Shown here piece by piece: positions 9,189 through 63,543 of a stretch of DNA of 64,000 nucleotides (position 1 is its first letter; the number at the start of each line of letters is the position of its first letter). A program made the translations under genes and the position numbers. A model generated the notes under the pieces. It made no database searches. It was given only the letters and a program-made list of their open reading frames with translations, and was not told the origin of the DNA. The stretch covers positions 434,001-498,000 of the forward strand of contig NZ_JAPWHB010000001.1 in the NCBI RefSeq assembly GCF_027214025.1. The letters run 5' to 3'. The stretch is from Parahoeflea alexandrii (GTDB lineage: Bacteria; Pseudomonadota; Alphaproteobacteria; Rhizobiales; Rhizobiaceae).

Positions 9189-9257
9189 GCGCCAATGGCC
9201 TGCTTCATACAGGATTCTCGGCGGGGCGCAAGTGCCCTCGCCTCAAAACCTATTCAT

Positions 9258-9497
9258 TCAAGCCTGGACTGCCTCGACGACGGTCCAGCGCTTGTCCTTG
9301 GAAATGGGCGCGCATTCCTGAATGGAAACCTCATCGCCCACCTTGTACTGATTGTTTTCGTCGTGCGCCTTGTAGTTCTTGGTGCGACGCACAATTTTCC
9401 GCATGACCGGATGCGCGAAACGGCGTTCCACCCGGACCACTACGGTCTTCTCGTTCTTGTCACTGACAACAGTGCCCTGCAGAATGCGTTTTGGCAT
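9258..9497 (-). CDS. rpsQ: 30S ribosomal protein S17
   Basis: Small-subunit protein S17 (79 residues), a primary 16S rRNA binder with an OB fold. [21 protein letters not shown] and the motif [25 protein letters not shown] are characteristic. It ends the rplP-rpmC-rpsQ run; the next gene, rplN, follows only after a hairpin-containing gap. Confidence 0.98.
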
Positions 9498-9509
9498 TTT
9501 CTTCGGTCC

Positions 9510-9710
9510 TTAGGCCTTGGATTCGGCCGCCTTCTGGCGGGCAATAGTCTTGATCCGAGCGATATCGCGGCGAACTTGCTGCACGCGCGATGTCTTTTCG
9601 AGCTGGCCGGTAGCGCCCTGGAAACGCAGATTGAACTGCTCTTTCTTCAGCTTGGCAAGCTCATCATTGAGTTGGTCGACGCTCAAGGCGCGAACATCAG
9701 CGGCTTTCAT
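9510..9710 (-). CDS. rpmC: 50S ribosomal protein L29
   Basis: Large-subunit protein L29 (66 residues), a two-helix protein at the tunnel exit that helps dock SRP and trigger factor. [18 protein letters not shown] and [30 protein letters not shown] are the expected signatures. It is 12 bp from rpsQ and 11 bp from rplP. Confidence 0.98.
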
Positions 9711-9721
9711 GATCCGTCTCC

Positions 9722-10135
9722 TTACTCTGCGATGCGCTGTACGAAGCGGGTCTTGACCGAAAGCTTGGCCGCGCCGAGACGCAGGGCTTCACGGGCGAGT
9801 TCCTCGCTGACACCGTCGATTTCGAACATGATCCGGCCGGGCTTGACCTTTGCAGCCCAGTAATCGACCGAACCCTTGCCCTTACCCATGCGGACTTCCG
9901 TCGGCTTGGAGGTCACGGGCACGTCCGGGAAGATGCGGATCCACACCCGGCCGGCACGCTTCATGTGACGCGTGATGGCACGGCGGGCTGCCTCGATCTG
10001 ACGCGCGTTGACGCGATCGGGCTCTTGTGCCTTCAAGCCGTAGGAACCGAAATTCAAGTCCGAGCCGCCCTTGGCGACACCCTTGATGCGGCCCTTGAAC
10101 TGCTTGCGGTACTTTGTACGCTTTGGCTGCAACAT
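9722..10135 (-). CDS. rplP: 50S ribosomal protein L16
   Basis: Large-subunit protein L16 (137 residues), which positions A-site tRNA near the peptidyl-transferase centre. [16 protein letters not shown], the [22 protein letters not shown] segment (about residues 62-83) and the C-terminal [12 protein letters not shown] match the family. It lies between rpsC and rpmC. Confidence 0.99.
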
Positions 10136-10170
10136 TGTTTAATTCTCCGAATTATCTGCCTGGCGCAAAA

Positions 10171-10875
10171 TCAGGCGTTTTCGCGCCGGCGATTGCCGCC
10201 AGAAGCGTCGCCTTCAGTGGCGCGACGTTCAGACGCCATGGGATCATGCTCAAGAATTTCACCCTTGAAGATCCAGACCTTCACTCCGCAAATGCCGTAG
10301 GCGGTCTTTGCCTCGGCCGTGCCGTAATCGATATCGGCGCGCAGCGTGTGAAGCGGAACCCGGCCTTCGCGGTACCATTCGGTACGTGCGATTTCCGCGC
10401 CGCCGAGACGGCCGCCGCAGGTGATCTTGATGCCTTCGGCGCCGAGACGCATGGCCGACTGGACCGAACGCTTCATGGCGCGGCGGAACGCGATGCGGCG
10501 CTCGAGCTGCTGGGCGATCGACTGGGCGACCAGGGTCGCGTCAACTTCGGGCTTGCGCACTTCAACAATGTTGAGGTGGGTTTCCGAGTTGGTCATCTCC
10601 GACAGCTTGCGGCGCAGCTTTTCGATGTCCGCACCCTTCTTGCCGATGATCAGGCCAGGACGGGCTGCATGAATGGTCACGCGGCACTTTTTGTGCGGGC
10701 GCTCGATGACAACCTTGGAAATGCCGGCCTGCTTGAGTTCGGCCAGAAGATACTTGCGGATCTTCAGGTCTTCGTGAAGCAGCTTGCCGTATTCGGCATT
10801 GTCGGCGAACCAACGGCTGTCCCAAGTGCGGTTAATGCCGAGGCGGAAACCGATCGGATTGATTTTCTGACCCAT
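10171..10875 (-). CDS. rpsC: 30S ribosomal protein S3
   Basis: Small-subunit protein S3 (234 residues), at the mRNA entry channel with helicase-like function. The N-terminal [16 protein letters not shown], the KH domain with [17 protein letters not shown] (about residues 61-75), and the C-terminal domain ending [16 protein letters not shown] are all present, with a variable basic tail. Its ATG overlaps the rplV stop by one base, so the two are translationally coupled. Confidence 0.99.
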
Positions 10876-47999: not shown

Positions 48000-48002
48000 G
48001 CC

Positions 48003-49292
48003 ATGTTTGTCATCATCACAGTGTTGCTTCTCCTCCTCAACCTCAGCTTCGGCATTCCCGTCGCCTTCAGCCTCGCAATCGCGGGCGCGGCGGGTCTCTA
48101 TATGTTCGGTGGCTCGCAGCTTCTGTTCGGCATCCTCGCCACCGCGCCCGCGTCCGCGATCAGCAGCTATGAGTTCCTGACCATCCCGATGTTCCTGCTG
48201 ATGGCAGAGTTCATGATTGCAAGCCGCGTATCGAGCTCACTCTTTCATGCCATCGCCCGCTGGACGAGCTGGTTGCCGGGTGGCCTGGGTATCGCGACGG
48301 CGCTTACTGGCGCCGCTTTTGGCGCGATCTCTGGCTCGAGCACGGCGGCAGCGGCAACGCTGTCCTCCACCAGCATTCCCGCGATGGTGGACGAAGGTTA
48401 TGAGCGCGGCTTCGCAAGCGGCATCGTCTCAATCGCCGGCACTCTCGCCATGCTTATCCCGCCAAGCATAGCGATCATCTTCTACGGCCTTCTGACCGGA
48501 ACCAGCGTCGCCAAGCTGCTTGTGGCGGGCATCGTGCCCGGTCTTCTCGTCACGCTGTTCATCATCGCGACTATCTGGTTGCTGATCTGGCGCGACCCCT
48601 CGCTTGCCCCCTCGCGGCGCAGCTATTCCTGGAGCGAGCGATTCCGCTCGCTCAGCGTCGCCGGTCCTTTCCTTGGTCTGTTCATGCTGGTGACAGGCCT
48701 CATTTATCTCGGCATCGCCACGCCGGTGGAGGCCTCCGCACTCGGTGCACTCGGCGCATTCGTCTTCGCCGTGATCACCGACCACATGAACTGGGATACC
48801 TTTAAGCGCGCGCTTCTAAGCACCGTGCTCACCTCCGCCATGATTGGCCTCATCGTGATCTCGGCGCAGATATTCGGCTTCTTCATCACCATCACGCAGG
48901 TCACTCAGAACCTCGTCAACTTTGTCGCCGCCCACGACCTGCCGCCCTACGCCGTGATGCTGTTCCTGGTCGTGCTATACATCGTCCTCGGCTGCTTTCT
49001 CGACCAGCTCTCGATCCTTATTTTGACCGTACCGGTAGTGTTGCCAGTGGTGCTGTCGCTTGGTTACGACCCTATCTGGTTTGGTATTATCATCATCCTT
49101 CTGGCGGAGGTTGGCATGGTCACTCCACCGATCGGGCTCAACGTCTACGTGGTCGCGCGCAACACCAACCAGCCGGTGGAGACTGTGTTTCGCGGCGTGT
49201 GGCCGCATGTCGCCGCCCACATCCTGCTGATCCTGACCATGCTAATCTTTCCGCAAATCGTGCTGTGGCTGCCGGGGAGCATGGGCCAATGA
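48003..49292 (+). CDS. TRAP transporter large permease, DctM family (module 1)
   Basis: The 429-residue channel subunit with about twelve membrane helices. FGAISGSSTAAAATLSSTSIPAM (about residues 94-116) and IPPSIAIIFYGLLTGTSVAKL are conserved ion/substrate-site regions of the DctM family, and EVGMVTPPIGLNVYVVA lies near the C-terminus. Uptake is driven by a sodium or proton gradient. Its stop overlaps the ATG of the oxidoreductase gene (ATGA). Confidence 0.93.
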   Translation: MFVIITVLLLLLNLSFGIPVAFSLAIAGAAGLYMFGGSQLLFGILATAPASAISSYEFLTIPMFLLMAEFMIASRVSSSLFHAIARWTSWLPGGLGIATALTGAAFGAISGSSTAAAATLSSTSIPAMVDEGYERGFASGIVSIAGTLAMLIPPSIAIIFYGLLTGTSVAKLLVAGIVPGLLVTLFIIATIWLLIWRDPSLAPSRRSYSWSERFRSLSVAGPFLGLFMLVTGLIYLGIATPVEASALGALGAFVFAVITDHMNWDTFKRALLSTVLTSAMIGLIVISAQIFGFFITITQVTQNLVNFVAAHDLPPYAVMLFLVVLYIVLGCFLDQLSILILTVPVVLPVVLSLGYDPIWFGIIIILLAEVGMVTPPIGLNVYVVARNTNQPVETVFRGVWPHVAAHILLILTMLIFPQIVLWLPGSMGQ

Positions 49293-50275
49293 CCATGCGC
49301 GCGGTTGTCTGCGAGGAACTGCGCTGGCCGGCCAGGCTGCCGGTAGCCACCGTCGCCACGCCCGAGCCGGGACCGGGACAGATACTGGTCGAGGTGGCCG
49401 CAGCAGGGCTCAACTTCGCCGATACGCTAGTCATCGGCGGCACTTATCAGGAAAAACTGCAGCCGCCCTTCATACCGGGTGCCGAGCTTGCCGGCACTGT
49501 GACGAAGGTCGGCGCAGACGTTACGAAGTTCCGGCTGAGCGACCGGGTGATGGGACAGGTCGTCTCCGGGGCCTATGCCGAACAGGCATTACTCGATGTA
49601 GCGCGCGCGCAACGCGTGCCGGATGAGATGCCGTTCAGCGAGGCGGCGGGCTTCTTCATCCCTTACGGCACTGCCGCATGCGGTCTGTTCGAGCGCGGGA
49701 GACTTAAGCCCGAAGAAACCGTCCTCGTCACCGGCGCTGCGGGAGGCGTCGGCCGCGCGGCGGTAGAGCTCGCGCTTGCGCGCGGCGCCCGGGTGATCGC
49801 AACGGCAAGCGGCGCAGCGCGGCGCGCCGCGATTGCTTCGATGGGCGACGTTACCGTCCTCGACGCCGACCACGCCGGCCTGAAGGAACGGCTTCTGCAA
49901 GCGACCGGCGGAAAAGGCGTCGACATCGTCTTTGACGTGGTTGGCGGCGAGCTTGCTCGCCAAGCGTTACGCGCGCTTGCCTTCGAGGGGCGCTTTGTCA
50001 TCGTCGGCTTCGCCAGCGGTAACATTCCGAATTTCCCGGCCAACCATCTGCTAGTGAAGAACGTCGACGTAATTGGCCTTTATTGGGGCGTCTACCAGAC
50101 GCACCTTCCCGAACGCACAGACGCGATGTTCGAGGAGCTGGCCAAATATTACCGTCAGGGCGCGATTAGGCCGCATATCGCGGCCAGCTTCCCGCTCGAA
50201 AAAATCAATGAAGCGCTGGCCGAACTAGTTGCGCATAAACATATCGGCAAACTCATCGTGGATCCAAAGTCATGA
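49289..50275 (+). CDS. NADPH:quinone oxidoreductase-type, zinc-independent MDR protein
   Basis: A 328-residue member of the medium-chain dehydrogenase/reductase superfamily, quinone oxidoreductase/acryloyl-CoA-reductase-like. The start MTMRAVVCEE overlaps the dctM stop. The N-terminal domain has GLNFADTLVIGGTYQEKLQPPFIPGAELAG, and the Rossmann motif VTGAAGGVGRAAVELALARG is at about residues 147-166. The zinc ligands of alcohol dehydrogenases are absent. In this operon it could reduce an enoyl-CoA double bond using NADPH, rather than a quinone. The stop overlaps the crotonase ATG. Confidence 0.88.
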   Translation: MTMRAVVCEELRWPARLPVATVATPEPGPGQILVEVAAAGLNFADTLVIGGTYQEKLQPPFIPGAELAGTVTKVGADVTKFRLSDRVMGQVVSGAYAEQALLDVARAQRVPDEMPFSEAAGFFIPYGTAACGLFERGRLKPEETVLVTGAAGGVGRAAVELALARGARVIATASGAARRAAIASMGDVTVLDADHAGLKERLLQATGGKGVDIVFDVVGGELARQALRALAFEGRFVIVGFASGNIPNFPANHLLVKNVDVIGLYWGVYQTHLPERTDAMFEELAKYYRQGAIRPHIAASFPLEKINEALAELVAHKHIGKLIVDPKS

Positions 50276-51087
50276 CAGCACAGAAACCAGTTCGCATAGA
50301 ACATCTTCCCGACGCGCCCGAGATAGCCGTAGTTTCGCTCAATCGTCCCGCGCAAAAAAACGCCATCACAGACGAGATGATCGATGGGCTGATGGAGGCC
50401 GCTTCCAGCTTTCACGAGGACTCCGATACTAAGGTGATCGTCCTGCGTGGCGAGGGCGGTTTCTTCAGCGCCGGCGCGGACGTCTCAACTTTCGATGCCA
50501 TCGAGAACGAGACCGACGTAAACAGAGTGCGCCGCATGACCCATAAGGGCGGTCGGCTGTGCACGGAGTGGGAAACGCTGCCACAGCTTACCATCGCCTC
50601 GATCACCGGCGGCGCGGTCGGCGGTGGTTTAGCGCTAGCGCTGGCCAGCGACTGGCGTGTCATGGCCGAAGATGCCTGGGTTTACGTGCCGGAGGCGCGG
50701 CTCGGACTCATCTATGGCTGGAATACCGTGCCGCGGCTGACGCGTCTGATAGGCCCAGCCCGCACCAAGACGCTATCGATCCTCTGCCGCCGCCATTCAG
50801 CGGCCGAATGCGACAAATGGGGCCTAACCGACAAAATCGCCAAAGGGAACGATGCCGACAAGACGGCCTTCGAACTGGCCCGCGAGGCCTGCAGCGTCCC
50901 GCGGCTGGCCGCCCAGCTAATCAAGCGCTCGACCAATGCCGCCTCGAACGCGCTCTCGGCCTCGACCAGCTATGCCGACATGGACGACATGCTGGTCTGC
51001 ATGACCGATCCCGAAGGCAACGCCGCGCGCCAAGCGTTCATAGCGGGCCTTAAGAACAAGGACCACAAGCTTGAAGGGGGCAGATAA
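50272..51087 (+). CDS. Enoyl-CoA hydratase/isomerase-family (crotonase) protein
   Basis: A 271-residue crotonase. Oxyanion-hole elements are FSAGAD (residues 65-70) and GGAVGGGLALAL (113-124). E141 in VPEARLGLIYGW matches the first catalytic glutamate of classical hydratases. By eye, the second glutamate (E164 in rat hydratase) aligns with a threonine in ARTKTLSIL, and the usual GxGGTQRL segment is WNTVPRL. So it may be an isomerase, hydrolase or retro-aldol lyase instead of a hydratase. It is translationally coupled to the oxidoreductase and lies 2 bp before the ligase. Confidence 0.88.
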   Translation: MTAQKPVRIEHLPDAPEIAVVSLNRPAQKNAITDEMIDGLMEAASSFHEDSDTKVIVLRGEGGFFSAGADVSTFDAIENETDVNRVRRMTHKGGRLCTEWETLPQLTIASITGGAVGGGLALALASDWRVMAEDAWVYVPEARLGLIYGWNTVPRLTRLIGPARTKTLSILCRRHSAAECDKWGLTDKIAKGNDADKTAFELAREACSVPRLAAQLIKRSTNAASNALSASTSYADMDDMLVCMTDPEGNAARQAFIAGLKNKDHKLEGGR

Positions 51088-51089
51088 CC

Positions 51090-52706
51090 ATGGCCGAACT
51101 CGACCAATTCAACGACGAAACGCGGCTTGGCGACTGCCTCGACCATCACGCTGAAAATCATGCCGACCGAGTGGCAGTTCGCGATGCTCAGACGAGCCTT
51201 ACCTATGCCGAGCTGCGCGCCGAGGTGATGCGCTGTACCAGGGCACTGTACTCGGCGGGCGTGCGCGCGGGCGACCGGATTGCGACGCTGGCTGCTCCGC
51301 GCGCCGAGGTGATGGTGATCTTCCTCGCCGCCGCGAAGCTCGGCGTGTTGTGGCTAGGCCTCAATCCAAAATACACACAGCGCGAACTACACTACGTGGT
51401 CTCGGACGCCCGCCCAAAGCTGATCTTCGGCATTCGCGAACACGAAGGCCGCGACTATGCAGCAGACCTGTTAGAGATCCGCCGCGTGCATAGTTCGATC
51501 GCGCGTACAGTCGGCCTCGATGGCATTTCCGGCTACGATGTTTCCTTCGCCGACTGGCTTGACGAGCCCGACAGCGCCGACAGAGTGCTCGCTGTCGAGT
51601 TGGCGGTTGCTGCCGTCAACTCCGAAGCGGCGGCGTTACTCGTTTATACATCTGGCTCAAGCGGACGTCCCAAGGGCGTGCAGCTTCGCCAGCGCGAGCT
51701 CCTGCGCCGCAGCCGGACACAGAACGAACAATTCCCTGCCACCCCCTATCCGCGCGTGATGAACCCGCTGCCAATCAACCATATCGGCGGAATGCACTTC
51801 CTCTCGCTGTTTACTTTCGTTGGCGCAGGTACGATCACACTGGTCGACAAGCATCGGCCTGCTGATTTCGTGCGAGCGATAAAGGCGGGTGAGATCAACA
51901 TGCTCTACACGCTGCCCACTATGTTCCAGATGCTTGCAGAGCACCCGGCTTTTGAGCGGGGTATGCTCGACCAGCTGCAATGGGTCATCTACTCAGGCGC
52001 GGCGATGCCAGGCAGTCTGATCGACATCCTGTTTGCCGCCAAATGCAATGTTGGCCTGACCTATGGCATGACCGAGAGCTGCGGTTCGGTAACCTACGCG
52101 CGCAAAGACGGCTACAACCGCGACGTGATGATGAACACGATCGGCTACCCGACTCCACCGGGCGAGGTGCGCGTAGCGCGCACTGACGGCACGGTGTGCG
52201 ACGTTGGCGAGGACGGCGAGATCCAGGTGCGCGCACGCTATTGCATGAAGAGCTATTTTGAGCGTCCCGCCGAGACCGAGGCGGTGTTCACTGATGGCTG
52301 GCTGAAGACGGGCGACATCGCACGCGTGTGCCAGGACGGAAGTATCCAGTTCATCGGTCGCATGAGCGAGATGTTCAAATCTGGAGGCTATAACGTCTAT
52401 CCGCGCGAAATCGAACTTGCGCTGGAGGAACATCCCCAGGTAGTTCTGAGCGCGGTAGTCGGGCTCCCAGATCCACTTTTCGATGAGGTAGGATGGGCCT
52501 ATGTCTCACAGCAGCCTGGATCGCATCTCACGGAGGAGTCACTCAAGGCGTGGTGCGCAGAACAGCTTGCCAGCTACAAGATCCCTAAACGCTTCATAGT
52601 CTCCAACGCGCTGCCGATGCTTCCGGTTGGCAAGGTCGACAAGGTGAGCCTGAAGAAGGAGGCTCGCACCACGCTGGAAAAAGAGGCGGCCACTGATAAG
52701 CTATAA
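51090..52706 (+). CDS. Acyl-CoA synthetase, ANL superfamily
   Basis: A 538-residue AMP-forming acid-CoA ligase, which would activate the imported acid. The phosphate loop YTSGSSGRPK is at 186-195, YGMTES at 325-330, TGD at 407-409, the hinge GRMSEMFKSGGYNVYPREIE at about 423-441, and the catalytic lysine in PVGKVDK (K515). It is the last gene of module 1. The substrate class cannot be told from the motifs; carnitine/crotonobetaine-CoA, cinnamate-type or medium-chain acid ligases are all possible. Confidence 0.92.
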   Translation: MAELDQFNDETRLGDCLDHHAENHADRVAVRDAQTSLTYAELRAEVMRCTRALYSAGVRAGDRIATLAAPRAEVMVIFLAAAKLGVLWLGLNPKYTQRELHYVVSDARPKLIFGIREHEGRDYAADLLEIRRVHSSIARTVGLDGISGYDVSFADWLDEPDSADRVLAVELAVAAVNSEAAALLVYTSGSSGRPKGVQLRQRELLRRSRTQNEQFPATPYPRVMNPLPINHIGGMHFLSLFTFVGAGTITLVDKHRPADFVRAIKAGEINMLYTLPTMFQMLAEHPAFERGMLDQLQWVIYSGAAMPGSLIDILFAAKCNVGLTYGMTESCGSVTYARKDGYNRDVMMNTIGYPTPPGEVRVARTDGTVCDVGEDGEIQVRARYCMKSYFERPAETEAVFTDGWLKTGDIARVCQDGSIQFIGRMSEMFKSGGYNVYPREIELALEEHPQVVLSAVVGLPDPLFDEVGWAYVSQQPGSHLTEESLKAWCAEQLASYKIPKRFIVSNALPMLPVGKVDKVSLKKEARTTLEKEAATDKL

Positions 52707-53004: not shown

Positions 53005-53424
53005 TCAGCCATTTTCACCTAGAATCCGATAAACTTGCATCCGCGCAATTGCGGATGGCTTTTCGTCACCGCCTGCCAACCGCAGGACTTCATCCCGATC
53101 AATCCGTTGCTTGCCACCCTTGCTCCGACCAAACACCGTCATCACGATCTGACCCATTTCGCCCTTGGTCGAGACGTAGGGATCGAGCACGGTCACGAAG
53201 GCCTGCTTTTGCTCGCATTCATAGATGATATTCAACACGTCCCGGGTATCGCGGCCAAGCCGGTCTAGCCGCGTGACCATCAGCTCGTCGTCTGGTCGAA
53301 GGAAACTGAGAATGGTAGCGAGTTCGTCGCGGCTCTTGCCAGACACCTTTTCCGAGCAAATGAGGCTGCACCCCTCGGCGGTCAACCGTTCTGTCCGGAT
53401 ATTCAGGTCCTGGTCATTGGTGCT
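53005..53424 (-). pseudogene. Serine recombinase (resolvase/invertase) remnant
   Basis: The frame reads STNDQDLNIRTERLTAEGCSL, then EKVSGKSRDELATILSFLRP, then MVTRLDRLGRDTRDVLNIIYECEQ, clearly a Pin/TnpR-type serine recombinase catalytic domain. The first residues, including the catalytic serine region (YARVS), are missing where the IS3 fragment begins. Two internal deletions are visible: after QIVMTVFG about 20 residues are lost before KGGKQRIDRDEVL, and the C-terminal HTH is shortened (PSAIARMQVYRILGENG). It is inactive. Confidence 0.82.
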
Positions 53425-53845: not shown

Positions 53846-54859
53846 ATGAAAACTAGCACCACGGCGCGGTTGCTGACCGCAGCAGGACTTGCGATTGGCG
53901 TTACACTGGCCGGCGCTGTTGCGTCCTGGGCCGCTGATGTCACCCTCAAGGTGACCGCGCAGCTTCCGGCCTCACATCCGACCACGTCAAATCTTATGGA
54001 ATTCAAAAAAATAGTCGAGGAGAAATCCGGTGGCGAGATCGCGGTCGAAATCTACGACTCCGCACAATTGTACAAGGACAGCGAAGTGCCGCAGGCGGTT
54101 TCCTCCGGTGCCGTCGCCATGGGTACAGCTTCGCTCACCCGTTTCGCCGGTACCATCCCGGCTGTTGATTTCTTCTATGTTCCGTTCAGCCTGCCGTCGC
54201 TCGAAGCCGTCGAGAAGGCAACCGCGCCCGGAAGCGAAATCCGCAAGCTGCTTGACGGTGCAATTGCTGAAACCGGTGCAAAGGTGCTGTGGTGGCAGGC
54301 CGTTGGCGGCGCTGTTGTCATGAGCAACAAGCCGGTTCACATGCCCGAAGATCTCAAGGGCATGAAGGTCCGCGTGTTCGGCAAGACGCTGGGCAATTTC
54401 GTTGAGTTGCTGGGCGGCGCGCCAGCCCTGATTTCCGGCTCAGAGCAATTCCTCGCCTATCAGCGCGGGACTGTCGATGCCGGTATGTCATCGGCAGCGG
54501 GCGTGACCTCGCGCAAGATCTATGAGGTGCTCGACCATCTCACCGTCACTAACCACGCTGACGTGGAATTTGTGGTACTGATCAACCAGGGCGTCTGGGA
54601 TGGGCTGAGCGATGCCCACAAGGCGATCGTCGACGAAGCCGCCAAGCAGGTTGAAAAGAGTCTGCGCGACGACGTCAACCGCAAGGAAATCGAGGCGATC
54701 GACTTCGTCCGGACCCAGACCAAGATGGAAGTCATCACGCTTGATGACGAACAGCTTGCCGCCTGGAAAAAGGCATCTGCGCCGATGATCGATAAATACA
54801 TCGAAAGCTCGGGCGACCTCGGTCGTAAAGTTGTGGAAGCTGCTGAGGCACTTCAGTAG
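53846..54859 (+). CDS. TRAP transporter solute-binding protein, DctP family (module 2)
   Basis: A 337-residue periplasmic binding protein. GGGAGGAGCACAGAT precedes the ATG, and a signal peptide is clear (residues 1-29, ending ASWA-AD). The substrate-carboxylate arginine is R176 in GMKVRVFGK. Motifs QLYKDSEVPQAVSSGAVAMG and GGAPALISGSEQFLAYQRGTVDAGMSS are typical DctP family segments. It is unrelated in detail to the module 1 binding protein, so the two systems import different acids. It is followed by DctQ after 68 bp. Confidence 0.93.
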   Translation: MKTSTTARLLTAAGLAIGVTLAGAVASWAADVTLKVTAQLPASHPTTSNLMEFKKIVEEKSGGEIAVEIYDSAQLYKDSEVPQAVSSGAVAMGTASLTRFAGTIPAVDFFYVPFSLPSLEAVEKATAPGSEIRKLLDGAIAETGAKVLWWQAVGGAVVMSNKPVHMPEDLKGMKVRVFGKTLGNFVELLGGAPALISGSEQFLAYQRGTVDAGMSSAAGVTSRKIYEVLDHLTVTNHADVEFVVLINQGVWDGLSDAHKAIVDEAAKQVEKSLRDDVNRKEIEAIDFVRTQTKMEVITLDDEQLAAWKKASAPMIDKYIESSGDLGRKVVEAAEALQ

Positions 54860-54927
54860 TCTTCGGTTTCTGGCGCCGGCCGTACAGGGTCGGCGCCATT
54901 AACTCCAGGTCGGGGCTTGGTCCGTCG

Positions 54928-55434
54928 ATGTTCAGCAAACTCACCGGTTATTTCGCCATTGTCGCCAGCGCGCTTTTCGTCGCGATCGGGGTGATGATCA
55001 GTTACGAAGTGGTCATGCGCTATGTCTTCCTTGCTCCCACCAGCTGGACCGAGGAGATGGCGCGGTTTTTCCTGATCTGGGCGGTCTACATGTCAGCCGC
55101 GCACCTGCTTCACAAACGCGAACTGATTTCGATCACCGTGATACAGGACAAGATGTCGCCCCGCTGGCGACTGGCGAGTGAATTTCTGACGCTGATCTGG
55201 ATCGCCGCCTTCAGCGTTGTCGCTGTTTATTATGGCGTGGTGACCGTCAACGAGAGCGTCCAGATTGGCCGCAAGACCGCCTCGATGCTGTCGGTTCCGC
55301 AATGGCTGACAGAAATCTCCATTCCAATTGGCTTCGCGCTGCTTTTCATCCAGTGCCTAGTCGAGGCGCAGGGGGTGCTTCGCGACGGCCATCTGAAGGG
55401 TAACGTCGACCGGAATTGGGAAGATACCATCTAG
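54928..55434 (+). CDS. TRAP transporter small permease, DctQ family (module 2)
   Basis: A 168-residue protein with four membrane segments, starting MFSKLTGYFAIVASALFVAIGVMISYEVVMRYVF. The motif PTSWTEEMARFFLIWAVYMSAAHLL is the conserved DctQ core. It abuts dctM with no gap (stop 55432-55434, ATG 55435). Confidence 0.9.
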   Translation: MFSKLTGYFAIVASALFVAIGVMISYEVVMRYVFLAPTSWTEEMARFFLIWAVYMSAAHLLHKRELISITVIQDKMSPRWRLASEFLTLIWIAAFSVVAVYYGVVTVNESVQIGRKTASMLSVPQWLTEISIPIGFALLFIQCLVEAQGVLRDGHLKGNVDRNWEDTI

Positions 55435-56706
55435 ATGACCGCGTTCCTGATCATCCTTTCGCTGTTTGCTGTCCTGCTGATCGGGATACCCATTGCCTTT
55501 GCACTCGGCGGCATGGGCGCGGTGCTGATCATCCTTGATGGTCTCAACCCGATTATTGTTACCCAGGCGCTCTACAGTTCGGTCGATTCCTTCATTCTGC
55601 TGGCAGTCCCGCTGTTTCTGCTGATGTCCAACATCCTGCTCAAGGGTGGTGTTGGCCGTGACCTGTTCGCGGCCGTTCAAAGCTGGGTTGGGCACTGGCC
55701 AGGCGGACTGGCCGTGGCAACCGTCATTTCCTGCGCCATTTTTGCCGCGATTTCAGGCAGTTCGATTGCCACTGCGGCGACGATTGCAACGGTGGCGATC
55801 CCGGAAATGACGTCACGCGGTTACCAGCGCCCGTTCGTGCTCGGGTTGCTTGCTGCCGGTGGCACGCTGGGCATTCTGATCCCCCCATCGGTGCCGCTGA
55901 TTGTCTATGGCGTTCTGACGGAGCAGAGCATTGTTTCGCTGTTTCTGGCCGGTGTCGCGCCCGGGTTGCTTCTGGCGGGATTGTTCATCGCCTTTTCTAT
56001 GCTCTATGCCGCCTACACCAAGGCCTTCGATCCGCTGCCTAAGGCAAGCTGGGACGAGCGCAAGGCAGCCAGTATCCGGGCATTGCCCAGTGTTGGTCTG
56101 GCTCTGATCATCTTCATCGGTCTGTATGGCGGTGTGTTTACACCAACTGAAGCTGCCGGTGTCGGTTTCGTGCTCGCCATCATCATTACCAGCCTGATGC
56201 TGCGCACGCTGAATTGGCAACTCTTCGGCGAAGCGGTGATCGGATCGATGCGGACCACCGTGACGATTTTCCTCATTGTTGCCGGCGCCAAGATCTTTGC
56301 CAAGGCGATCACGCTTTACCGGATTCCCCACGAAATCTCCGGGCTAATCATCGACAATTTCGACCAGGTCGGCTCGTTCATCTTCATTGTCTGCGTTGCG
56401 TTGCTGATCCTCGGTTTCTTCCTCGAATCGCTGTCGATGCTGCTGATCGTGGTGCCGGTCCTGTTTCCTGCACTCTTGAGCATGGGCATCGATCCGGTCT
56501 GGTTCGGCATCGTCTTCATGTTGATGATCGAGATCGCGCTGATCACGCCGCCAGTGGGGCTCAACCTGTTTGTCATCCAGGCGGTCGGCAAGGCCAGCCT
56601 GGGCGAGGTGACCAAGGGTGTGCTGCCTTTCCTAGCGATCATGCTGCTGACCGTTTTCCTGATCTACCTGTTTCCGCAGATCGTGCTGTTTATCCCGTTC
56701 GGGTAG
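55435..56706 (+). CDS. TRAP transporter large permease, DctM family (module 2)
   Basis: A 423-residue channel subunit with about twelve helices. Conserved segments include FAAISGSSIATAATIATVAIPEM (about residues 103-125), GGTLGILIPPSVPLIVYGVLTEQS, and EIALITPPVGLNLFVIQAVGKASLGEV. The next gene, panB-like, starts after a 252 bp gap with no gene, so the enzymes may have a separate promoter. Confidence 0.93.
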   Translation: MTAFLIILSLFAVLLIGIPIAFALGGMGAVLIILDGLNPIIVTQALYSSVDSFILLAVPLFLLMSNILLKGGVGRDLFAAVQSWVGHWPGGLAVATVISCAIFAAISGSSIATAATIATVAIPEMTSRGYQRPFVLGLLAAGGTLGILIPPSVPLIVYGVLTEQSIVSLFLAGVAPGLLLAGLFIAFSMLYAAYTKAFDPLPKASWDERKAASIRALPSVGLALIIFIGLYGGVFTPTEAAGVGFVLAIIITSLMLRTLNWQLFGEAVIGSMRTTVTIFLIVAGAKIFAKAITLYRIPHEISGLIIDNFDQVGSFIFIVCVALLILGFFLESLSMLLIVVPVLFPALLSMGIDPVWFGIVFMLMIEIALITPPVGLNLFVIQAVGKASLGEVTKGVLPFLAIMLLTVFLIYLFPQIVLFIPFG

Positions 56707-56958
56707 CCAAAGGGGTTGGTGCATTCGGCCAGACGGGACACAGCATTCGCCAATCGAGACTTGCCGATTTGTCGGTCATGTCCGAATTTCGATCCAGCCG
56801 CTGGCGCGCTTTTTCCAACCTGGAGAAATGTCCGGCTGCCGGCTCCAACAGTGCCAGGATGCCTTGCCTGCACATCTCGCGCTATCCTCCCAAGCGTGGC
56901 GCTAGTGCAGGCGGTATGCAGTCCATGCCGGTTTTAAGTCAAGCAAAGTGAGACCATT

Positions 56959-57783
56959 GTGAGCGTCCATACAACATCAAAGAAGATAACCTCCCAGCAC
57001 ATTCGCTCGCGCAAGGGTGGCGAACCGATTGTCGGCCTGACCGCTTACACCGCCGCGATGGCCAAGGCGATGGATTCCATCGTCGACTTCATCCTGGTCG
57101 GGGATTCGCTGGCGATGACGATCTATGGCGAGGATTCCACAGTAGGCGTTGACCTCGACACCATGATCCGGCACGGCAGGGCCGTGGTGCGGGCCTGCAA
57201 TCATGCTTGCGTGGTGGTCGATCTGCCGTTTGGCGATTACCAGGCAAGCCCCGAGCAGGCCTTCATGAGTGCGGCCCGGATCTTGCGGGAAACCGGATGC
57301 GATGCAGTCAAGCTCGAAGGCGGTATCGAAATGGCCGAAACCGTGGCCTTCCTGTCGACACGTGGTGTGCCAGTGATGGGCCATATCGGCTTGACGCCGC
57401 AATCCATCAACACGATGGGCGGGTTCAAGACCCAAGGTAAGGATGAGCTTGCCGTTCAGGAACTGATTACTGCGGCAAAGGCGATGGAAAGTGCGGGTTG
57501 CTTCGCGCTGGTGATCGAGGGGGTGATCGAATCCGCCTCCGAGAAGATCAATCAGGTGATGTCGATCCCCACAATCGGCATCGGCGCCTCGGTAGATTGC
57601 GACGGGCAGATTCTGGTGGTCGACGACGTGATCGGCATGTTCGAGGATTTCAAGCCCAAATTTGTCAAGCGCTATGCCCAGGTCATGCCCACCATCCGCG
57701 AAGCCATCGAGACTTTTGCAAACGAAGTGCGCACCCGGCAGTTTCCTTCCGCCGATCATGTCTTCGGTCGTTCCAAAGGGTGA
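56959..57783 (+). CDS. PanB-like ketopantoate hydroxymethyltransferase family protein (GTG start)
   Basis: A 274-residue TIM-barrel aldolase of the PanB family. Residues equivalent to the E. coli metal and substrate ligands are kept: D49 (VGDSLAM), D88 (DLPFGDY), K118 and E120 (VKLEGG), H142 (GHIGLTPQS), and E187 (VIEG). The loop after E187 reads GVIESAS, without the proline seen in biosynthetic enzymes. There is no panC nearby. In this catabolic setting it may run retro-aldol on a branched 2-oxo acid, or transfer a one-carbon unit. The GTG start was chosen because no ATG precedes the conserved N-terminus. Confidence 0.87.
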   Translation: MSVHTTSKKITSQHIRSRKGGEPIVGLTAYTAAMAKAMDSIVDFILVGDSLAMTIYGEDSTVGVDLDTMIRHGRAVVRACNHACVVVDLPFGDYQASPEQAFMSAARILRETGCDAVKLEGGIEMAETVAFLSTRGVPVMGHIGLTPQSINTMGGFKTQGKDELAVQELITAAKAMESAGCFALVIEGVIESASEKINQVMSIPTIGIGASVDCDGQILVVDDVIGMFEDFKPKFVKRYAQVMPTIREAIETFANEVRTRQFPSADHVFGRSKG

Positions 57784-57786
57784 GCA

Positions 57787-58716
57787 ATGGACCGGATTGA
57801 AATCACTGAAGTCGGACTGCGGGACGGGTTGCAGAGCGAAAAGGGGTTCTTCTCGACCGCTGACAAGATTGATCTCGGCAACCGTCTGACCGCGGCCGGA
57901 TTGCGCCGACTCGAAGCCACCTCGTTTGTCTCGCCCAGGGCAATCCCGCAACTTGCTGACGCCGAGGCGGTGATCGCCGGCATCAAGCCCGTCGACGGAC
58001 TTGTGCTTGAGGCGCTAGTGCCGAATGAACGCGGTGCCAGGCGGGCCATTGCGGCAAATGTCAAGGTCTGGGTCGCCTTTGCATCTGCTACTGAAAGCCA
58101 TTCGCTGGCCAATTCCAACACAAGTATCGAGATAGCGCTTGAGCGCATCAAGCCGCTTGGGGAACTGGCCAAAACGGCTGATGCTGAGCTTTATGGCTCG
58201 GTGGCCGTGGCCTATGACTGCCCGTTCGAGGGACAGGTCGGGACCGCTCAGGTGCTCAAGCTCGCCACGGCGTACCATGCGATGGGAATCCGGGTTCTCA
58301 AACTAGGCGACACCATCGGCTCGGCATCCCCGCGGCGGGTAAAGCAACTGATTTCGAGCCTTCAGGCGGAACTGCCGGACATGCAGTTGATCCTGCATTT
58401 TCACGACACCCGAGGCATGGGGCTCGCCAATGTCATGGCGGGCCTGGAAGCCGGTGCAAACCGGTTTGAAAGTGCCATTGGTGGTCTTGGCGGTTGTCCA
58501 TTCGCGCCCGGCGCATCGGGTAACATCTCGACCGAGGACTTGGTGCATCTTCTGCATCTGGAAGGTCTGTCTACCGGCATTGATCTGCCGACTCTAATTG
58601 ACGTAGGCAAGCTGCTTGAAAGCAGGCTCGGACGCACTCTTCCCGCCCGGCTGTTACGCTCCGAACCGGTCGGAACCCTTTATGACTTGAACGCCTCGGC
58701 ACGCGCTTCGGGTTGA
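57787..58716 (+). CDS. HMG-CoA-lyase-like enzyme, DRE-TIM family
   Basis: A 309-residue metal-dependent lyase. All catalytic and metal residues of HMG-CoA lyase have equivalents: R12 and D13 (EVGLRDGLQ), E43, D175 (LKLGDTIG), H204 and H206 (HFHDTRG), C237 (GGLGGCPFAPGASGN) and N246. The reaction would be retro-Claisen cleavage of a 3-hydroxy-3-substituted acyl-CoA to acetyl-CoA or another acyl-CoA plus a keto acid. It lies 3 bp after the PanB-like gene. HMG-CoA, citramalyl-CoA or a longer analogue are candidate substrates. Confidence 0.9.
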   Translation: MDRIEITEVGLRDGLQSEKGFFSTADKIDLGNRLTAAGLRRLEATSFVSPRAIPQLADAEAVIAGIKPVDGLVLEALVPNERGARRAIAANVKVWVAFASATESHSLANSNTSIEIALERIKPLGELAKTADAELYGSVAVAYDCPFEGQVGTAQVLKLATAYHAMGIRVLKLGDTIGSASPRRVKQLISSLQAELPDMQLILHFHDTRGMGLANVMAGLEAGANRFESAIGGLGGCPFAPGASGNISTEDLVHLLHLEGLSTGIDLPTLIDVGKLLESRLGRTLPARLLRSEPVGTLYDLNASARASG

Positions 58717-58762
58717 GCCACCTGCGCCCGACCACCTACGCCGGACAATGACGGAGACAAGC

Positions 58763-59959
58763 ATGAGCCTCAACGGAATTCGGGTTGTCGACCTGACACG
58801 TATCATCTCCGGTCCGTTCTGCACCCAGCTCCTCGCAGATTTGGGCGCGGATGTGATCAAGATCGAGACCATCGGCGGCGACCCGCTGCGCGAGCAGGGC
58901 GCCAAGGTGAATGGCTTCAGCTGGTATTTCGCGGCCTACAATCGCAACAAGCGCTCAGTTTCGCTCGACCTTTACAGCGACGAAGGCAAGTCCATTCTCA
59001 GACAGATAATCCGCAGCGCCGATGTCCTGGTGGAAAATTTCCGACCGGGTGTGCTCGACAAGATGGGCCTGTCCATACCGGAACTGGAAGAACTCAATTC
59101 CAAGCTGATCGTCTGCAACATCAGTGGCTTCGGCGCCAGCGGTCCCTATGCGCAGCGGCCGGCCTTTGATTTTATCGCCCAGGCCCTCAGCGGCTTCATG
59201 AGCGTCAATGGCGTCGAAGGCGAACCGCCCGTCCGTTCGGGGCTTCCGATCAGCGATCTGGTGGCCGGCCTCTATGGCGCATTGGGTGTGGTTTCACGCC
59301 TGGTGGACCGACCGGCAGCAGGCAGTGCGCCTTCCGGGGTTCAGAATGTTGACATCAGCCTGACCGACAGCATGGTCAGTCTGCTCAGTTACATGGCGTC
59401 CGATCACCTGGCGGTCGGCAGATCGCCGATGCGCAGCGGCAACGATCACCCGCTGGTTGCGCCCTATGGAGTGTTCGAGACGGCGGACAAGCCGATTGCC
59501 CTGGCGCCCAGCAATGACGGGGTCTACGCGAAGTTGCTTGCCGCTATGGATCTGCAGCATCTGCACAGTGACCCCCGGTTTGTGACCAATGCCGACCGGC
59601 TGGCCAATCGTGGTGCCTTGCGTGATATTCTGGAGCCGATCTTCAAGTCTGCCCCAGGCGATCACTGGATCGCGCTCCTCAACAAGGCCGGTGTTCCGGT
59701 AGGGCCGATCCTGTCGGTGTCGGAAGTCTTCGAGGATCCCCAAATCATGCACCGTGACATGAAGATCGAGGTCGATCATGGTGACCGCGGCTCCGTGCAG
59801 ATGCTGGGGTTCCCGATGAAATTCAGCCAGGAGTCCTGCGAAGTCCGATATCCGGCACCGAGCTTGGGTGAGCACAGCAGCCAGGTGCTGGCTGAAGCCG
59901 GTTTCAGCCAGGCCGAAATCGACGCATTCGTCCAAAATGGGGTGTTGCGCCAGGACTGA
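58763..59959 (+). CDS. CaiB/BaiF family III CoA-transferase
   Basis: A 398-residue CoA-transferase, which would activate the imported acid by moving CoA from a donor such as succinyl-CoA or acetyl-CoA. The catalytic aspartate is D136 in AFDFIAQALSG. The start at 58763 (MSLNGIRVVDLTRI) has ACGGAGACA as RBS; an ATG five codons earlier overlaps it. It follows the lyase by 46 bp. CoA-transferase plus DRE-TIM lyase is the pairing expected for activation followed by C-C cleavage. Confidence 0.92.
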   Translation: MSLNGIRVVDLTRIISGPFCTQLLADLGADVIKIETIGGDPLREQGAKVNGFSWYFAAYNRNKRSVSLDLYSDEGKSILRQIIRSADVLVENFRPGVLDKMGLSIPELEELNSKLIVCNISGFGASGPYAQRPAFDFIAQALSGFMSVNGVEGEPPVRSGLPISDLVAGLYGALGVVSRLVDRPAAGSAPSGVQNVDISLTDSMVSLLSYMASDHLAVGRSPMRSGNDHPLVAPYGVFETADKPIALAPSNDGVYAKLLAAMDLQHLHSDPRFVTNADRLANRGALRDILEPIFKSAPGDHWIALLNKAGVPVGPILSVSEVFEDPQIMHRDMKIEVDHGDRGSVQMLGFPMKFSQESCEVRYPAPSLGEHSSQVLAEAGFSQAEIDAFVQNGVLRQD

Positions 59960-60171
59960 CTAGACGGTTTTGCCATTTGTATCCTGGCGCCTCGCTTGGC
60001 TTCCGTGAGATGCCGCGCCTTCCGGAAGCGTTCGACGGAGCTTGTTGATCGTTATCAGTCTTGCGGAGCTCCGCGGCGGCGAGTAGGTTCCGGCCATGCC
60101 AGCCACCGGCATTGCACCCACATTTTGCGCTGCCGGTCACCGTCGTAATCCATGATCAGAAAAAGCCTCTC

Positions 60172-61059
60172 ATGAATATTGACTTTGTCAGCCTGAAGGC
60201 ATTCTTGACGGTCGTCGATACCGAAAGCATTCGCGCTGCATCGGAAAATCTCAACCTGTCCATTTCCGCCGTCAGCCGGCGCATATCCGAGCTTGAGATC
60301 GAGTTTGGCCAACAGCTTTTCACACGCCACTCGCGCGGCGTGGAAATCACGGAAGCAGGGCGGCTGCTGGCCGCGCGCACCCGCGAGACCTTTGCAACGC
60401 TGGGTCTGATGTGTTCGGACATGGATAAGCTCAAGGCGGGCAACATCGGCCGGGTGATGATCAGCGCCAATGGCTCCTCGCTGGTCAATGGACTGGCCAG
60501 ACATATTCGCGAGTTTCTCGATGCCCACCCCAACGTCGCCGTCGATCTTCAGGAACAGCTGACACCGGATATCCTCCACCACGTGGCGGGCGGCTCGACC
60601 GATATCGGTTTCGTCTCCAACACCATGCGGTTGCCCGAGGGCGTGACGACCTATCCCTACTGCAGCGACAAATTGGTGCTAGCGGTTGCTGCAATCCACG
60701 CCCTGGCAGACCTTGGAAGCGTGCGGTTTTCTCAGATGCTCGAATTTCAGGTCATCGGTGTCAGCGAAACCAGCTCGCTCACGCGGCTGCTGAGGAAGGT
60801 TGGTGGCATGGCCAATTCGGGATTCAGTTACAGCTACATGGCCAGCACCAACGAGATAGCCCGCACAATGGTGGCCAACAATCTCGGCATTGCAGTTCTG
60901 CCCGAGCAATTCGTCGTGCCCTACACCGACATGCTGCCCATCCGCGCGATCCCGATTGCCGAGGATTGGGCGCATCGTGAGATCTCGATGGTAATTCGCA
61001 GCGGAAGGGAAATTTCCGGCCCAGCAAGAGCATTCTTTGAATGGATCTGCAAGATGTGA
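60172..61059 (+). CDS. LysR-family transcriptional regulator
   Basis: A 295-residue regulator, starting MNIDFVSLKAFLTVVDTESI. The HTH is at residues about 1-60 (AASENLNLSISAVSRRISELE), and the effector-binding domain is about 88-293. It lies on the same strand as module 2, 212 bp after the CoA-transferase, and is the last intact gene of the island. It probably responds to the module 2 substrate or a CoA intermediate. Confidence 0.92.
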   Translation: MNIDFVSLKAFLTVVDTESIRAASENLNLSISAVSRRISELEIEFGQQLFTRHSRGVEITEAGRLLAARTRETFATLGLMCSDMDKLKAGNIGRVMISANGSSLVNGLARHIREFLDAHPNVAVDLQEQLTPDILHHVAGGSTDIGFVSNTMRLPEGVTTYPYCSDKLVLAVAAIHALADLGSVRFSQMLEFQVIGVSETSSLTRLLRKVGGMANSGFSYSYMASTNEIARTMVANNLGIAVLPEQFVVPYTDMLPIRAIPIAEDWAHREISMVIRSGREISGPARAFFEWICKM

Positions 61060-61091: not shown

Positions 61092-62110
61092 TCACGTCAC
61101 ATATTCCTGTGGCGTCAAGCCAGCGAGGCTGCAATGCGGGTGGCACTGGTTGATATCGGTGCACCATTCCGTCACCAGATTGCGAGTATGATCTAAATTG
61201 GCGAACAGGTGGTCATTCGACAATTCGTCGCACATCCGACCTTTGAAGAATTCAACGATTCCGTTTTGCATGGACTTGGCCGGCGCGATGTAATCACCAC
61301 TCAACTGTGCGGTCCTCTTGCCAAGTCAGGATCGCGTTCTCGGTCAGCTCTAATTCATTGTCACCGACCACCATGCAGACGTAGTCCCACATCTCGGCGA
61401 TTTGGTTAAGTCCACGTGCGGCGCGGATGTCTGACAGGGCGGTATCGACAACTGCGGCCAAACATTCCCGTCTGAATTCATCAATCACGTTCAGGATGCG
61501 GGACCGGCGATCCATACGACAGGCTATCGGCTACGAAGTCTAAACTCCAGAGCTGTTAGGCCGCTGCGGGATTGCCATCGGCGCTATGGTGCCAAGGCAC
61601 GCTTCCTGCCACCACGTTTGCGCACGGCGGGCCCTTCCTCCTCGAAGAGGTGATATAGCTTTCCTCCATTTCACTTGCCGGCCTTCAACCCGCAACAGGA
61701 CATGCGGATTTCGATGGCCAAATCGTCACCACTCTGATGAGAATTCCTTTAACCGCGCCGTAGCTCAGCATCTTCCGATCGCGTTGACGCCCCCCCCCCC
61801 GATAAACACGCGGGTCGACCCCAGCCGACGAGGCCCGCCGCTGTAGAGATCCCTTCTTTGTCATGGCCAAATCCACGACGCGCCGCCGTGCGCCAGACCT
61901 TATAAGCTCTTGCGTAGCATTTCTCTTGGTGTCGAGACATACAACATCTGATCTGCCAGCGGCATTTCAAGTTTAGCGTTCTCGGCTTCCAGCGCCTTCA
62001 GCTTCTTGCCGCCTAACACTTCCATGCCGCAAACCTTGCACGCCACTTATACAAGGTCACATGGCTTTCGCCGTGTTGCTGGCGTAGTTCCTTCAGTAGG
62101 AACAGACCAA
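61092..62110 (-). pseudogene. IS3-family (IS407-like) insertion sequence remnant
   Basis: Frame-broken IS3 debris read on the minus strand. OrfA pieces at about 62110-61910 read QHGESHVTLYKWRARF, GGKKLKALEAENAKLEMPLADQM. OrfB pieces include VRKRGGRKRALAP (about 61620-61580), DRRSRILNVIDEFRRECLAAVV (61515-61450), VGDNELELTENAILTWQEDRTVEW ending 61294, and MQNGIVEFFKGRMCDELSNDH to GLTPQEYVT (61271-61092). Stops and frameshifts interrupt every domain. An 11-base C run at 61790-61800 lies inside it. No transposase activity is expected. Confidence 0.78.
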
Positions 62111-62171: not shown

Positions 62172-63350
62172 TCAAGTTTGCTTAGTTTTCGTCGTTGCTG
62201 GAAATATATCGATCTTTTCACCGATTTGATTGGCCGCAAATTTCAGCGGATCATCGGATAAATGTGCATAGCGTGCAGTTGTTTGAGGTTGGGAATGGCC
62301 CAGCAGTTTTCCAATCATAGGAAGGGACATGCCGCTGGCGACAGCTATTGATGCAAAGGAATGGCGCAAATCATGAATGCGCACATTGTCGAGCCCTGCC
62401 CGTTTGCGGATTCTGCGCCACGGCTTTTGCAGATTGACTAGGCACGAGCCCCTTTTCAGCCCACATATGACATGAGGATTGTCTTCGTAACGCGGCAGAC
62501 TGGTCAAAACTTGCCTAGCCTGCGGACTGAAGTAAATCGTTTTCGCACCGGTCTTGGGGTCAGGAAGCCGGATGCAGGAATTGTCAAAATCAATCCAATC
62601 CCATTTTAGCGTCAGAACTTCACTCAATCGCGCACCAGTTAGAATGAGCAACCTGAGTGCCGCAATCACAAAAGGGCTTTGGGCCCCCTCCTCTTTCTAC
62701 CGAAGCAAGTGCTTCGCCCAGATGAGTGATCTCGGCAGACGATAAGAATCATTCACGCTTGCACTCCTTGAAAGGCACGACATGCAAAGTTGGATTGCTG
62801 TGATCCGCCCGAAAGCCATTTTGCTCACACCAGTTGAAGAACTTGCGCAGCACCGCCAACAGACGGTTCGCCTGGTATGGTGTTTTCGCCAGATCATTAT
62901 GAACTTGGGCAACATGAGAGCGACCAATTTCGGTGATCGGGAGCCTAGACAGGTTCGACGGCACTAGAGTTTCTACCAAGCGCCTGTATTCGGCACTTGA
63001 GCGGCCTTTGAGTTTTGCGTCGGCATGCTCTTGAAGGAACTGCTCTAGGAGCTAGCCTGCGCCCTTCTCCGCCCTTTTCAAGTCCCGCTCGGCCATGGGG
63101 TCATCGCCACGCGCTATCTGCCGCAAGGCGGCTTGTGCATGCGAACGCGCCTGATCAGCGGTCAACGCACCGAATGTGCCAAGCGTGATGCGGCGTGAGC
63201 GTCGCCCTATCCGGTATTGAAGAACAAAGAGACCTTTCTCCCGGAAGGAGTGACCTTTAACCCATAGCCCGCCAATTCATCATCTCAAATGAACGCATCC
63301 TTGTCGGTGGCAGCAGTGGCATCAATCAGTCGTTTGGTGATCTTTGGCAT
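62172..63350 (-). pseudogene. Tyrosine integrase of the island, multiply disrupted
   Basis: An arm-domain (DUF4102-type) tyrosine recombinase. It starts MPKITKRLIDATAATDKDAFI at 63350 and meets TGA at codon 22 (63285-63287, tryptophan expected), shifts frame near QYRIGRRSRRITLG, has TAG at 63052-63054, TGA at 62749-62751 (KRE-stop-FLSSAEI, arginine expected), and a frameshift in the G run near 62685. The catalytic C-terminal part is undamaged: R in LTGARLSEVL, HDLRHSFAS, LLGHSQPQTTARYAHL. It reads away from attR, the normal integrase orientation for a tRNA island. Confidence 0.9.
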
Positions 63351-63377
63351 GACTTGGCCTCCTAACCCAAGGAAACC

Positions 63378-63432
63378 AGTAAGCAAATAGTAAGCAAATA
63401 GTGAGCAAATAGTAAGCAAATAGTAAGCAAAT
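63378..63432 (+). repeat. Five tandem 11 bp repeats, candidate integrase arm sites
   Basis: AGTAAGCAAAT is repeated five times with no spacers; only copy 3 differs by one base (AGTGAGCAAAT). An 11 bp period keeps every copy on nearly the same face of the helix. The array lies 28 bases upstream of the integrase start and 111 bases from attR. Integrase arm-type or Xis binding sites are the likely role; integrase autoregulation is possible. A partial copy lies near attL at 42863. Confidence 0.75.
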
Positions 63433-63543
63433 CAGCAGGAAATCGCAATAATCTTAGGGAATGCAAATCTCATTGCTTATTTGTTTTTATTAGTTTTTAT
63501 CCGTCCCCTGACTCTACAGGATCCGCAAGAATCACCAAAATGT

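Follow-up and report, generated by a model that had tools for sequence, protein, structure and literature searches.

A stretch of 64,000 nucleotides from Parahoeflea alexandrii (assembly GCF_027214025.1, contig NZ_JAPWHB010000001.1, positions 434,001 to 498,000; hereafter the window) carries at 53846-61059 seven genes that very probably form a catabolic cassette. In this cassette a homologue of PanB, the ketopantoate hydroxymethyltransferase (KPHMT) regarded as a marker for pantothenate synthesis, stands beside an enzyme resembling 3-hydroxy-3-methylglutaryl-coenzyme A (HMG-CoA) lyase, a family III CoA-transferase, a tripartite ATP-independent periplasmic (TRAP) importer and a LysR regulator. 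Our tentative reading is that of a LysR-linked, horizontally moved cassette, in which import, CoA activation and retro-Claisen cleavage of an organic acid would be joined to a one-carbon exchange carried out by PanB. The genes of the cassette are as follows.

53846-54859, + strand: DctP, TRAP solute-binding protein (PF03480, 6.8e-62)
54928-55434, + strand: DctQ, TRAP small permease (PF04290, 6e-29)
55435-56706, + strand: DctM, TRAP large permease (PF06808, 4.2e-106; TIGR00786, 380.5 bits)
56959-57783, + strand: PanB homologue of the ketopantoate hydroxymethyltransferase family, GTG start (PF02548, 6.8e-103; TIGR00222)
57787-58716, + strand: HMG-CoA-lyase-like DRE-TIM enzyme (PF00682, 1.1e-41; NF004283, 330.6 bits against a cut-off of 246)
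58748-59959, + strand: family III (CaiB/Frc) CoA-transferase (PF02515, 2.5e-122)
60172-61059 (open reading frame from 60061), + strand: LysR regulator (PF00126, 3.8e-19; PF03466, 8.4e-31)

Each of the seven is an open frame that lies on the + strand and matches its family strongly, and these matches confirm the families assigned to the genes by an earlier, sequence-only reading of the window; all three TRAP components are present. The N-terminus of DctP resembles, by eye, a signal peptide, and LysR more likely starts at ATG 60172 than at TTG 60061, because in the longer frame the helix-turn-helix match starts only at residue 44. The genes had been described as tightly arranged, which is true of DctP-DctQ-DctM (gaps of 68 and 0 bases) and of PanB-lyase-CoA-transferase (3 and 31 bases), but not of the 252 bases between DctM and PanB or the 212 bases that precede the LysR ATG, and there may therefore be two transcription units. 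A terminator-like hairpin lies at 56912-56930, inside the DctM-PanB gap; such hairpins are modestly more numerous than in shuffled sequences (14 against a mean of 7.1, standard deviation 3.4).

A PanB probably without a role in pantothenate synthesis

The window PanB is full-length and scores 311.9 bits against the TIGR00222 equivalog cut-off of 207.55. Nine active-site positions are the same as in E. coli (D45, S46, D84, K112, E114, H136, E181, I202 and I212), among which we take D45, D84, E114, K112, H136 and E181 to be metal ligands and catalytic residues. These last are kept in the window, in a second genome of the genus (G298), in Roseovarius and in a Roseovarius metagenome-assembled genome (L038), and for the window this bears out the earlier description of the metal ligands as intact. 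An unusual active site was considered as an argument for a new reaction, and none is found in the window PanB; since the site is ordinary, KPHMT-type chemistry is kept in our model. An excerpt on the E. coli enzyme describes KPHMT as able to work as a metal-dependent class II aldolase without its folate cofactor, which, as far as the excerpt goes, makes reversal of the PanB reaction chemically reasonable (PMC7610986). A panB of P. putida J5 that appears in the context of nicotine catabolism was set aside, as the excerpted account of it concerns pantothenate synthesis (PMC3891541).

The genome that contains the window (5.54 Mb, 68 contigs, completeness 100) has a single PanB, and a PF02569 profile search of all 68 contigs finds no PanC (0/1), a model that matches in 9 of 14 control genomes. 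The absence of panC, first remarked for the neighbourhood, thus extends to the whole assembly. Pantothenate synthesis was rejected as the reason for PanB in this genome, there being neither a PanC nor a second PanB, and because no panC was found, PanB probably has another job. The proposal that biosynthesis does not explain this PanB is in this way supported. Among 18 genomes of the genus (15 of them with a completeness of 90% or more and a contamination of 5% or less), PanB matches in three, namely the window's own, G298 (95%) and G313 (a 28% partial match), and is full-length in two, while PanC is present in G298 only (1/18); the 16 members without a full-length PanB match and the 17 without a PanC match are therefore predicted to be pantothenate auxotrophs. 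PanB homology is common in the order sample (243 of 297 genomes), with the best non-self protein among the matches listed 58% identical. In a sample of the window's own family, 17 of 394 genomes pass E 1e-102: the window's own, G1315 from another genus of that family (67%), and 15 others (56-58%), in every one of which PanC adjoins PanB. The corresponding sample for the family of Roseovarius yields one passing genome in 394, Roseovarius sp. ZX-A-9 (G794) itself, which has two PanBs, the cassette copy and one that adjoins panC at C11:157550-159165.

In the PanB tree, the cassette PanBs (window, G298, Roseovarius and G1315) and that of L038 form one clade (support 100/100) on a long stem (0.47), with the panC-paired Roseovarius PanB outside it; a previous 74-row tree, which lacked G1315, gives the same result. 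The four clade members compared depart together from other PanBs at few positions. They have A at the position of E. coli G48, where 67 of 69 other PanBs compared have G, and T at position 50, usually V in the other rows (E. coli itself has T); D at 61 and C at 175 are among the remaining few. Against the proposal one would have set a lone PanB inside the biosynthetic clade; the genome indeed has no other PanB, but this one lies in a separate clade and is accompanied by no PanC.

The alternative, that PanB still makes ketopantoate for pantothenate and that its place in the operon is incidental or supplies 2-oxoisovalerate, agrees with the retention of the compared catalytic positions. It also draws on a finding that weighs against our reading, which is that both G298 and the genome of L038 contain panC but no PanB other than the clade type, whose role there may be biosynthetic. 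The missing PanC in the window's own genome, the separate panB-panC pair of Roseovarius and the long-stemmed clade of the cassette PanBs all speak against this alternative, and we regard it as distinctly unlikely.

The lyase and the CoA-transferase

The enzyme encoded next to PanB belongs to the sequence family of HMG-CoA lyase (MvaB/LiuE; human HMGCL) and shares its metal ligands and catalytic Arg, Asp, His and Cys. R41, D42, H233, H235, C266 and N275, presumably the catalytic residues of HMG-CoA lyase, are all kept, as the sequence-only reading had stated, and the compared positions are retained in leucine-type and CoA-transferase-linked lyases alike. What sets the enzyme apart from the HMG-CoA lyase of leucine catabolism is its place outside that clade and four substitutions, F134H, R165Y, Y167S and Y238R in human HMGCL numbering. 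The leucine-type clade (support 100/98) unites human HMGCL with 19 lyases, 15 of which adjoin a methylcrotonyl-CoA-carboxylase-like gene, and it includes none of the 26 CoA-transferase-linked rows, the window's among them. Over the leucine set F134 and R165 are each found in 20/20 and Y167 in 16/20; at position 134, counted over all 48 rows of the lyase alignment, the CoA-transferase-linked rows have H (23/26) or L (3/26), and the cassette clade has H (5/5). From these sequence differences we consider, with moderate confidence, that the window lyase is not an HMG-CoA lyase. Under three alignment modes, position 134 aligns with an H of E. coli LeuA, and the H at 134 would fit a substrate that yields a 2-oxo acid. 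A sister lyase/CoA-transferase pair on a Roseomonas haemaphysalidis plasmid (L132) lies near LeuC/LeuD-like genes, which points to alkylmalate-type substrates. The annotations around that pair name the large and small subunits of 3-isopropylmalate dehydratase, oxaloacetate decarboxylase and several binding proteins of tripartite tricarboxylate transporters (TTT), and L132 is itself a candidate for an alkylmalate or citraconate pathway.

The CoA_transf_3 domain (PF02515) spans residues 8-377 of the 403-residue CoA-transferase, whose best PDB sequence matches are YfdE (4hl6) and 4ed9. The Asp of its ISDLVAGLYG motif, which we take to be the catalytic Asp of family III CoA-transferases, aligns with an Asp of both. 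A succinate--hydroxymethylglutarate CoA-transferase (9br6, 6.1e-74) is a relative, and among named models the two neighbouring enzymes are best matched by those for HMG-CoA lyase and for succinate--glutarate CoA-transferase (the second at 322.2 bits, below its cut-off of 750). Together with the retained catalytic residues of the lyase, these matches would suit plain use of 3-hydroxy-3-methylglutarate (meglutol), in which the CoA-transferase makes HMG-CoA, the lyase splits it into acetoacetate and acetyl-CoA, and PanB is unrelated. We consider this quite improbable, given that the lyase with its four substitutions lies outside the leucine-type clade and that such a route leaves unexplained both PanB and the SMP-30 gene described below.

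Recurrence and apparent mobility of the cassette

The core of LysR, PanB, lyase and CoA-transferase is present in three further genomes, G298, Roseovarius sp. ZX-A-9 and G1315, with the order PanB-lyase-CoA-transferase identical in all four. LysR is downstream of these genes in the window and in G298, but upstream of them in Roseovarius and G1315, where the homologue is 48.5% and 42.7% identical, respectively. G298 holds the complete seven-gene set at a different chromosomal site, where the neighbours resemble, by eye, glmS/glmU/ccdA on one side and PilZ/arsC on the other, with amino-acid identities of 87-97% (DctQ 87.5%, DctM 97.4%, LysR 87.1%). All seven genes look to be under purifying selection in the comparison with G298, with ratios of nonsynonymous to synonymous substitution rates (dN/dS) between 0.03 and 0.12 (DctP 0.043, DctQ 0.122, DctM 0.034, PanB 0.034, lyase 0.085, CoA-transferase 0.076, LysR 0.099), and the gene set is therefore not a product of chance. 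In G1315 the line-up is LysR, a gene for an SMP-30 lactonase-like protein (PF08450), PanB, lyase and CoA-transferase, with a TRAP system on the opposite strand. The SMP-30 gene is present in the Roseovarius cassette as well, and the two cassettes are alike in SMP-30 (58%), DctP (73%), DctQ (50%) and DctM (73%). The window DctM is only 34% similar to this type, and no close SMP-30 match is found in the window, in a 20 kb stretch of G298 or in L079, an 18 kb stretch that overlaps the last 1 kb of the window and continues beyond it (a 28% partial match). Because the importer differs between cassettes, we define the core as LysR-PanB-lyase-CoA-transferase with a variable importer. The expected conservation of the neighbourhood thus stands for PanB-lyase-CoA-transferase, which recurs elsewhere, and not for the TRAP genes, which fall outside the strict core; overall, the interpretation given in the sequence-only reading is partly supported.

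Wider searches return few relatives. A scan of 84,980 species genomes by exact peptide patterns, which can miss members, gives 40 PanB loci, of which three have PanBs of at least 60% identity: L037 (73%), L038 (68%) and L042 (62%). L037, from Roseovarius, has the LysR-PanB-lyase-CoA-transferase arrangement. In L038 (5153-10822) the neighbours of the clade-type PanB include a flavin oxidoreductase and a gene of the MTTB family, which may indicate a one-carbon context, and no window-like lyase or CoA-transferase is found within 10 kb of it. In L042 PanB is about 1 kb from the contig end, and the first 20 kb of the contig hold no other cassette genes. The PanBs of Bordetella (L071) and Azospirillum (L039 and L040) fall outside the cassette clade in the tree. 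In the Bordetella sp. locus (8849-10825), PanB follows a gene that resembles, by eye, a TctC-type binding protein, and panC is elsewhere in the genome. Of 642 plasmid records matched, two have their best place at 60-80% identity, and a scan of IMG/VR finds no relative. The lyase has matches at E 1e-60 or better in 134 of 385 genomes of the class sample and at 1e-76 or better in 6 of 397 of the order sample, self included in both.

Several of these observations weigh against our reading. The cassette is rare in the scanned collections; the window's TRAP system is distant from that of Roseovarius and G1315, and no SMP-30 gene is found next to it. The L095, L100 and L101 lyases, although CoA-transferase-linked, have L at 134 and keep R165 and Y167, so that the residue pattern is not universal among lyase/CoA-transferase pairs; this third type of residue pattern, seen in genomes of family f85, occupies a separate long branch. 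The PanB of G1315 (L169, 9999-10820), a full-length frame and the single PanB found in its genome, has D84E and E114G, the latter the loss of a conserved active-site carboxylate, so that the chemistry of this PanB may have changed or disappeared; compared with Roseovarius, the gene shows a dN/dS of 0.08, at a dS of 1.77 that is near saturation. Finally, the Pontibrevibacter plasmid lyase L125 sits in the cassette lyase clade without PanB. Its locus combines TRAP genes with genes for MmgE/PrpD, an acyl-CoA dehydrogenase and a CoA-transferase (36% to that of the window), and PanB is found neither there nor anywhere else on the plasmid, from which it follows that PanB is not always needed. Lyase/CoA-transferase pairs that lack PanB are indeed met repeatedly: there is no PanB within about 1.5 kb of the lyase at any of 34 non-self genome loci (29 from the class sample and five from the order sample, with further class-sample matches listed without a locus), and none beside the lyase in the eight plasmid regions examined. 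The altered G1315 PanB, the Pontibrevibacter locus and these repeated pairs would all be expected if PanB were a passenger, captured beside an ordinary lyase/CoA-transferase/TRAP organic-acid module and drifting or unrelated to the lyase. Against a passenger stand the spacing of PanB and lyase (3 bases in the window, G298 and G1315; a 4-base overlap in Roseovarius), the dN/dS of the window PanB, among the lowest in the set, and the PanB and lyase trees, which show the same split of window and G298 from Roseovarius and G1315. We hold the passenger explanation to be fairly unlikely.

The SMP-30 gene and the binding protein also bear on a route that starts from pantolactone: a lactonase would open the ring, oxidation of the resulting pantoate would give ketopantoate, and PanB would release 2-oxoisovalerate and methylene-tetrahydrofolate from it. 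Two cassettes carry the SMP-30 gene, and pantoate and erythronate are known TRAP ligands according to excerpts of two studies (PMC5812351; PMC11668362). In the excerpt of the second, binding proteins of the pantoate/erythronate group are characterised by Arg152, Arg173 and Asn213 in 4P47 numbering (PMC11668362). In the DctP of G1315, two Arg and an Asn align with identical residues of its PDB relative 4pc9, and they are taken as the equivalents of the group's residues. The window DctP, whose PDB matches are distant (best 4p47, at 109 bits) and named as C4-dicarboxylate, sialic acid and isethionate binders, has Gly, Arg and Ser at these positions and so lacks two of the three ligand residues given in that excerpt, which sets it apart from the group. 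As no pantoate dehydrogenase is recognised in the cassettes, and the lyase and CoA-transferase would be left without a role, we think this route highly improbable.

The surroundings of the cassette contain remnants of mobile elements, and it is apparently mobile or horizontally moved. It is flanked by two fragments:

53005-53385, - strand: resolvase N-terminal fragment (PF00239, 1.6e-14)
62172-62669, - strand: integrase C-terminal fragment (PF00589, 5.1e-23)

Short frames at 61092-62046, to the right of the cassette, resemble by eye pieces of an IS3-type transposase, and near the integrase fragment, at 63367-63454, an 11-base unit (AGTAAGCAAAT) is repeated in tandem about six times. Just upstream, at 48000-52706, is a catabolic-looking set of a TRAP large permease and quinone-oxidoreductase-like, enoyl-CoA hydratase-like and acyl-CoA ligase-like genes. 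Two Sinorhizobium records align at 84% identity to 80-83% of the window's first 25 kb, which makes the host a relative of Sinorhizobium.

A proposed pathway and its relation to known systems

In the catabolic reading that we favour, the TRAP system would import a hydroxy-carboxylic acid, as its family suggests, and the family III CoA-transferase would make the CoA ester of this acid. Judged by its group and residues, the lyase would then act on a tertiary 3-hydroxyacyl-CoA of the 2-alkylmalyl-CoA type, and its products would be acetyl-CoA and a 2-oxo acid. PanB would exchange a one-carbon unit between this 2-oxo acid and tetrahydrofolate; the likeliest form of the exchange is the removal of a hydroxymethyl group in the reverse of the ketopantoate hydroxymethyltransferase reaction. 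In the Roseovarius and G1315 versions, the SMP-30 lactonase-like protein may open a lactone first. On chemical grounds, a substrate class that could serve all of these enzymes is R1R2C(CH2OH)-C(OH)(COOH)-CH2-COOH or its gamma-lactone; no natural compound was matched to this class. That PanB acts in the retro direction is possible, though somewhat short of probable. More doubtful is the fully specified version, an undescribed pathway that would start from a branched hydroxymethyl acid or lactone. Through the CoA-transferase and a DRE-TIM lyase of non-HMG type this compound would yield acetyl-CoA together with a 4-hydroxy-2-oxo acid, from which PanB, a KPHMT run in reverse as a catabolic step, would take the hydroxymethyl group as methylene-tetrahydrofolate; the cassette would move between Hyphomicrobiales and Rhodobacterales. 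If PanB does run in the retro direction, the cassette would represent a catabolic source of methylene-tetrahydrofolate and would provide a handle on the HMG-CoA-lyase-like (HMGL-like)/CaiB pairs. A PanB that is under purifying selection where PanC was not found also suggests that PanB annotation, and predictions of auxotrophy based on PanB only, can mislead. The HMGL-like lyases, for their part, are publicly labelled hydroxymethylglutaryl-CoA lyase, yet they fall outside the leucine-type clade here.

HMGL-like/CaiB pairs with importers are known already from public annotations, and a search of the open-licence literature found no paper on PanB in such a gene set. Like the alphaproteobacterial pairs of this kind, the cassette joins its lyase to a family III CoA-transferase and an organic-acid importer (TRAP or TTT); unlike them (0/8 plasmid regions, 0/34 genome loci), it has PanB beside the lyase. 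Compared with the panB-panC operons of pantothenate synthesis, it shares PanB homology and lacks PanC, and in Roseovarius its PanB is additional to such a pair. With typical PanB, the window protein has in common the above-cut-off score and the nine active-site positions; it is unlike it in its own long-stemmed clade, the A at G48, the genome without panC and the catabolic setting. The pathway for itaconate and citramalate employs a transporter, a CoA-transferase and a CitE-like lyase. The cassette follows the same logic of transporter, CoA-transferase and lyase, with a lyase of the HMGL/DRE-TIM type in place of the CitE-like one and with PanB as an additional component.

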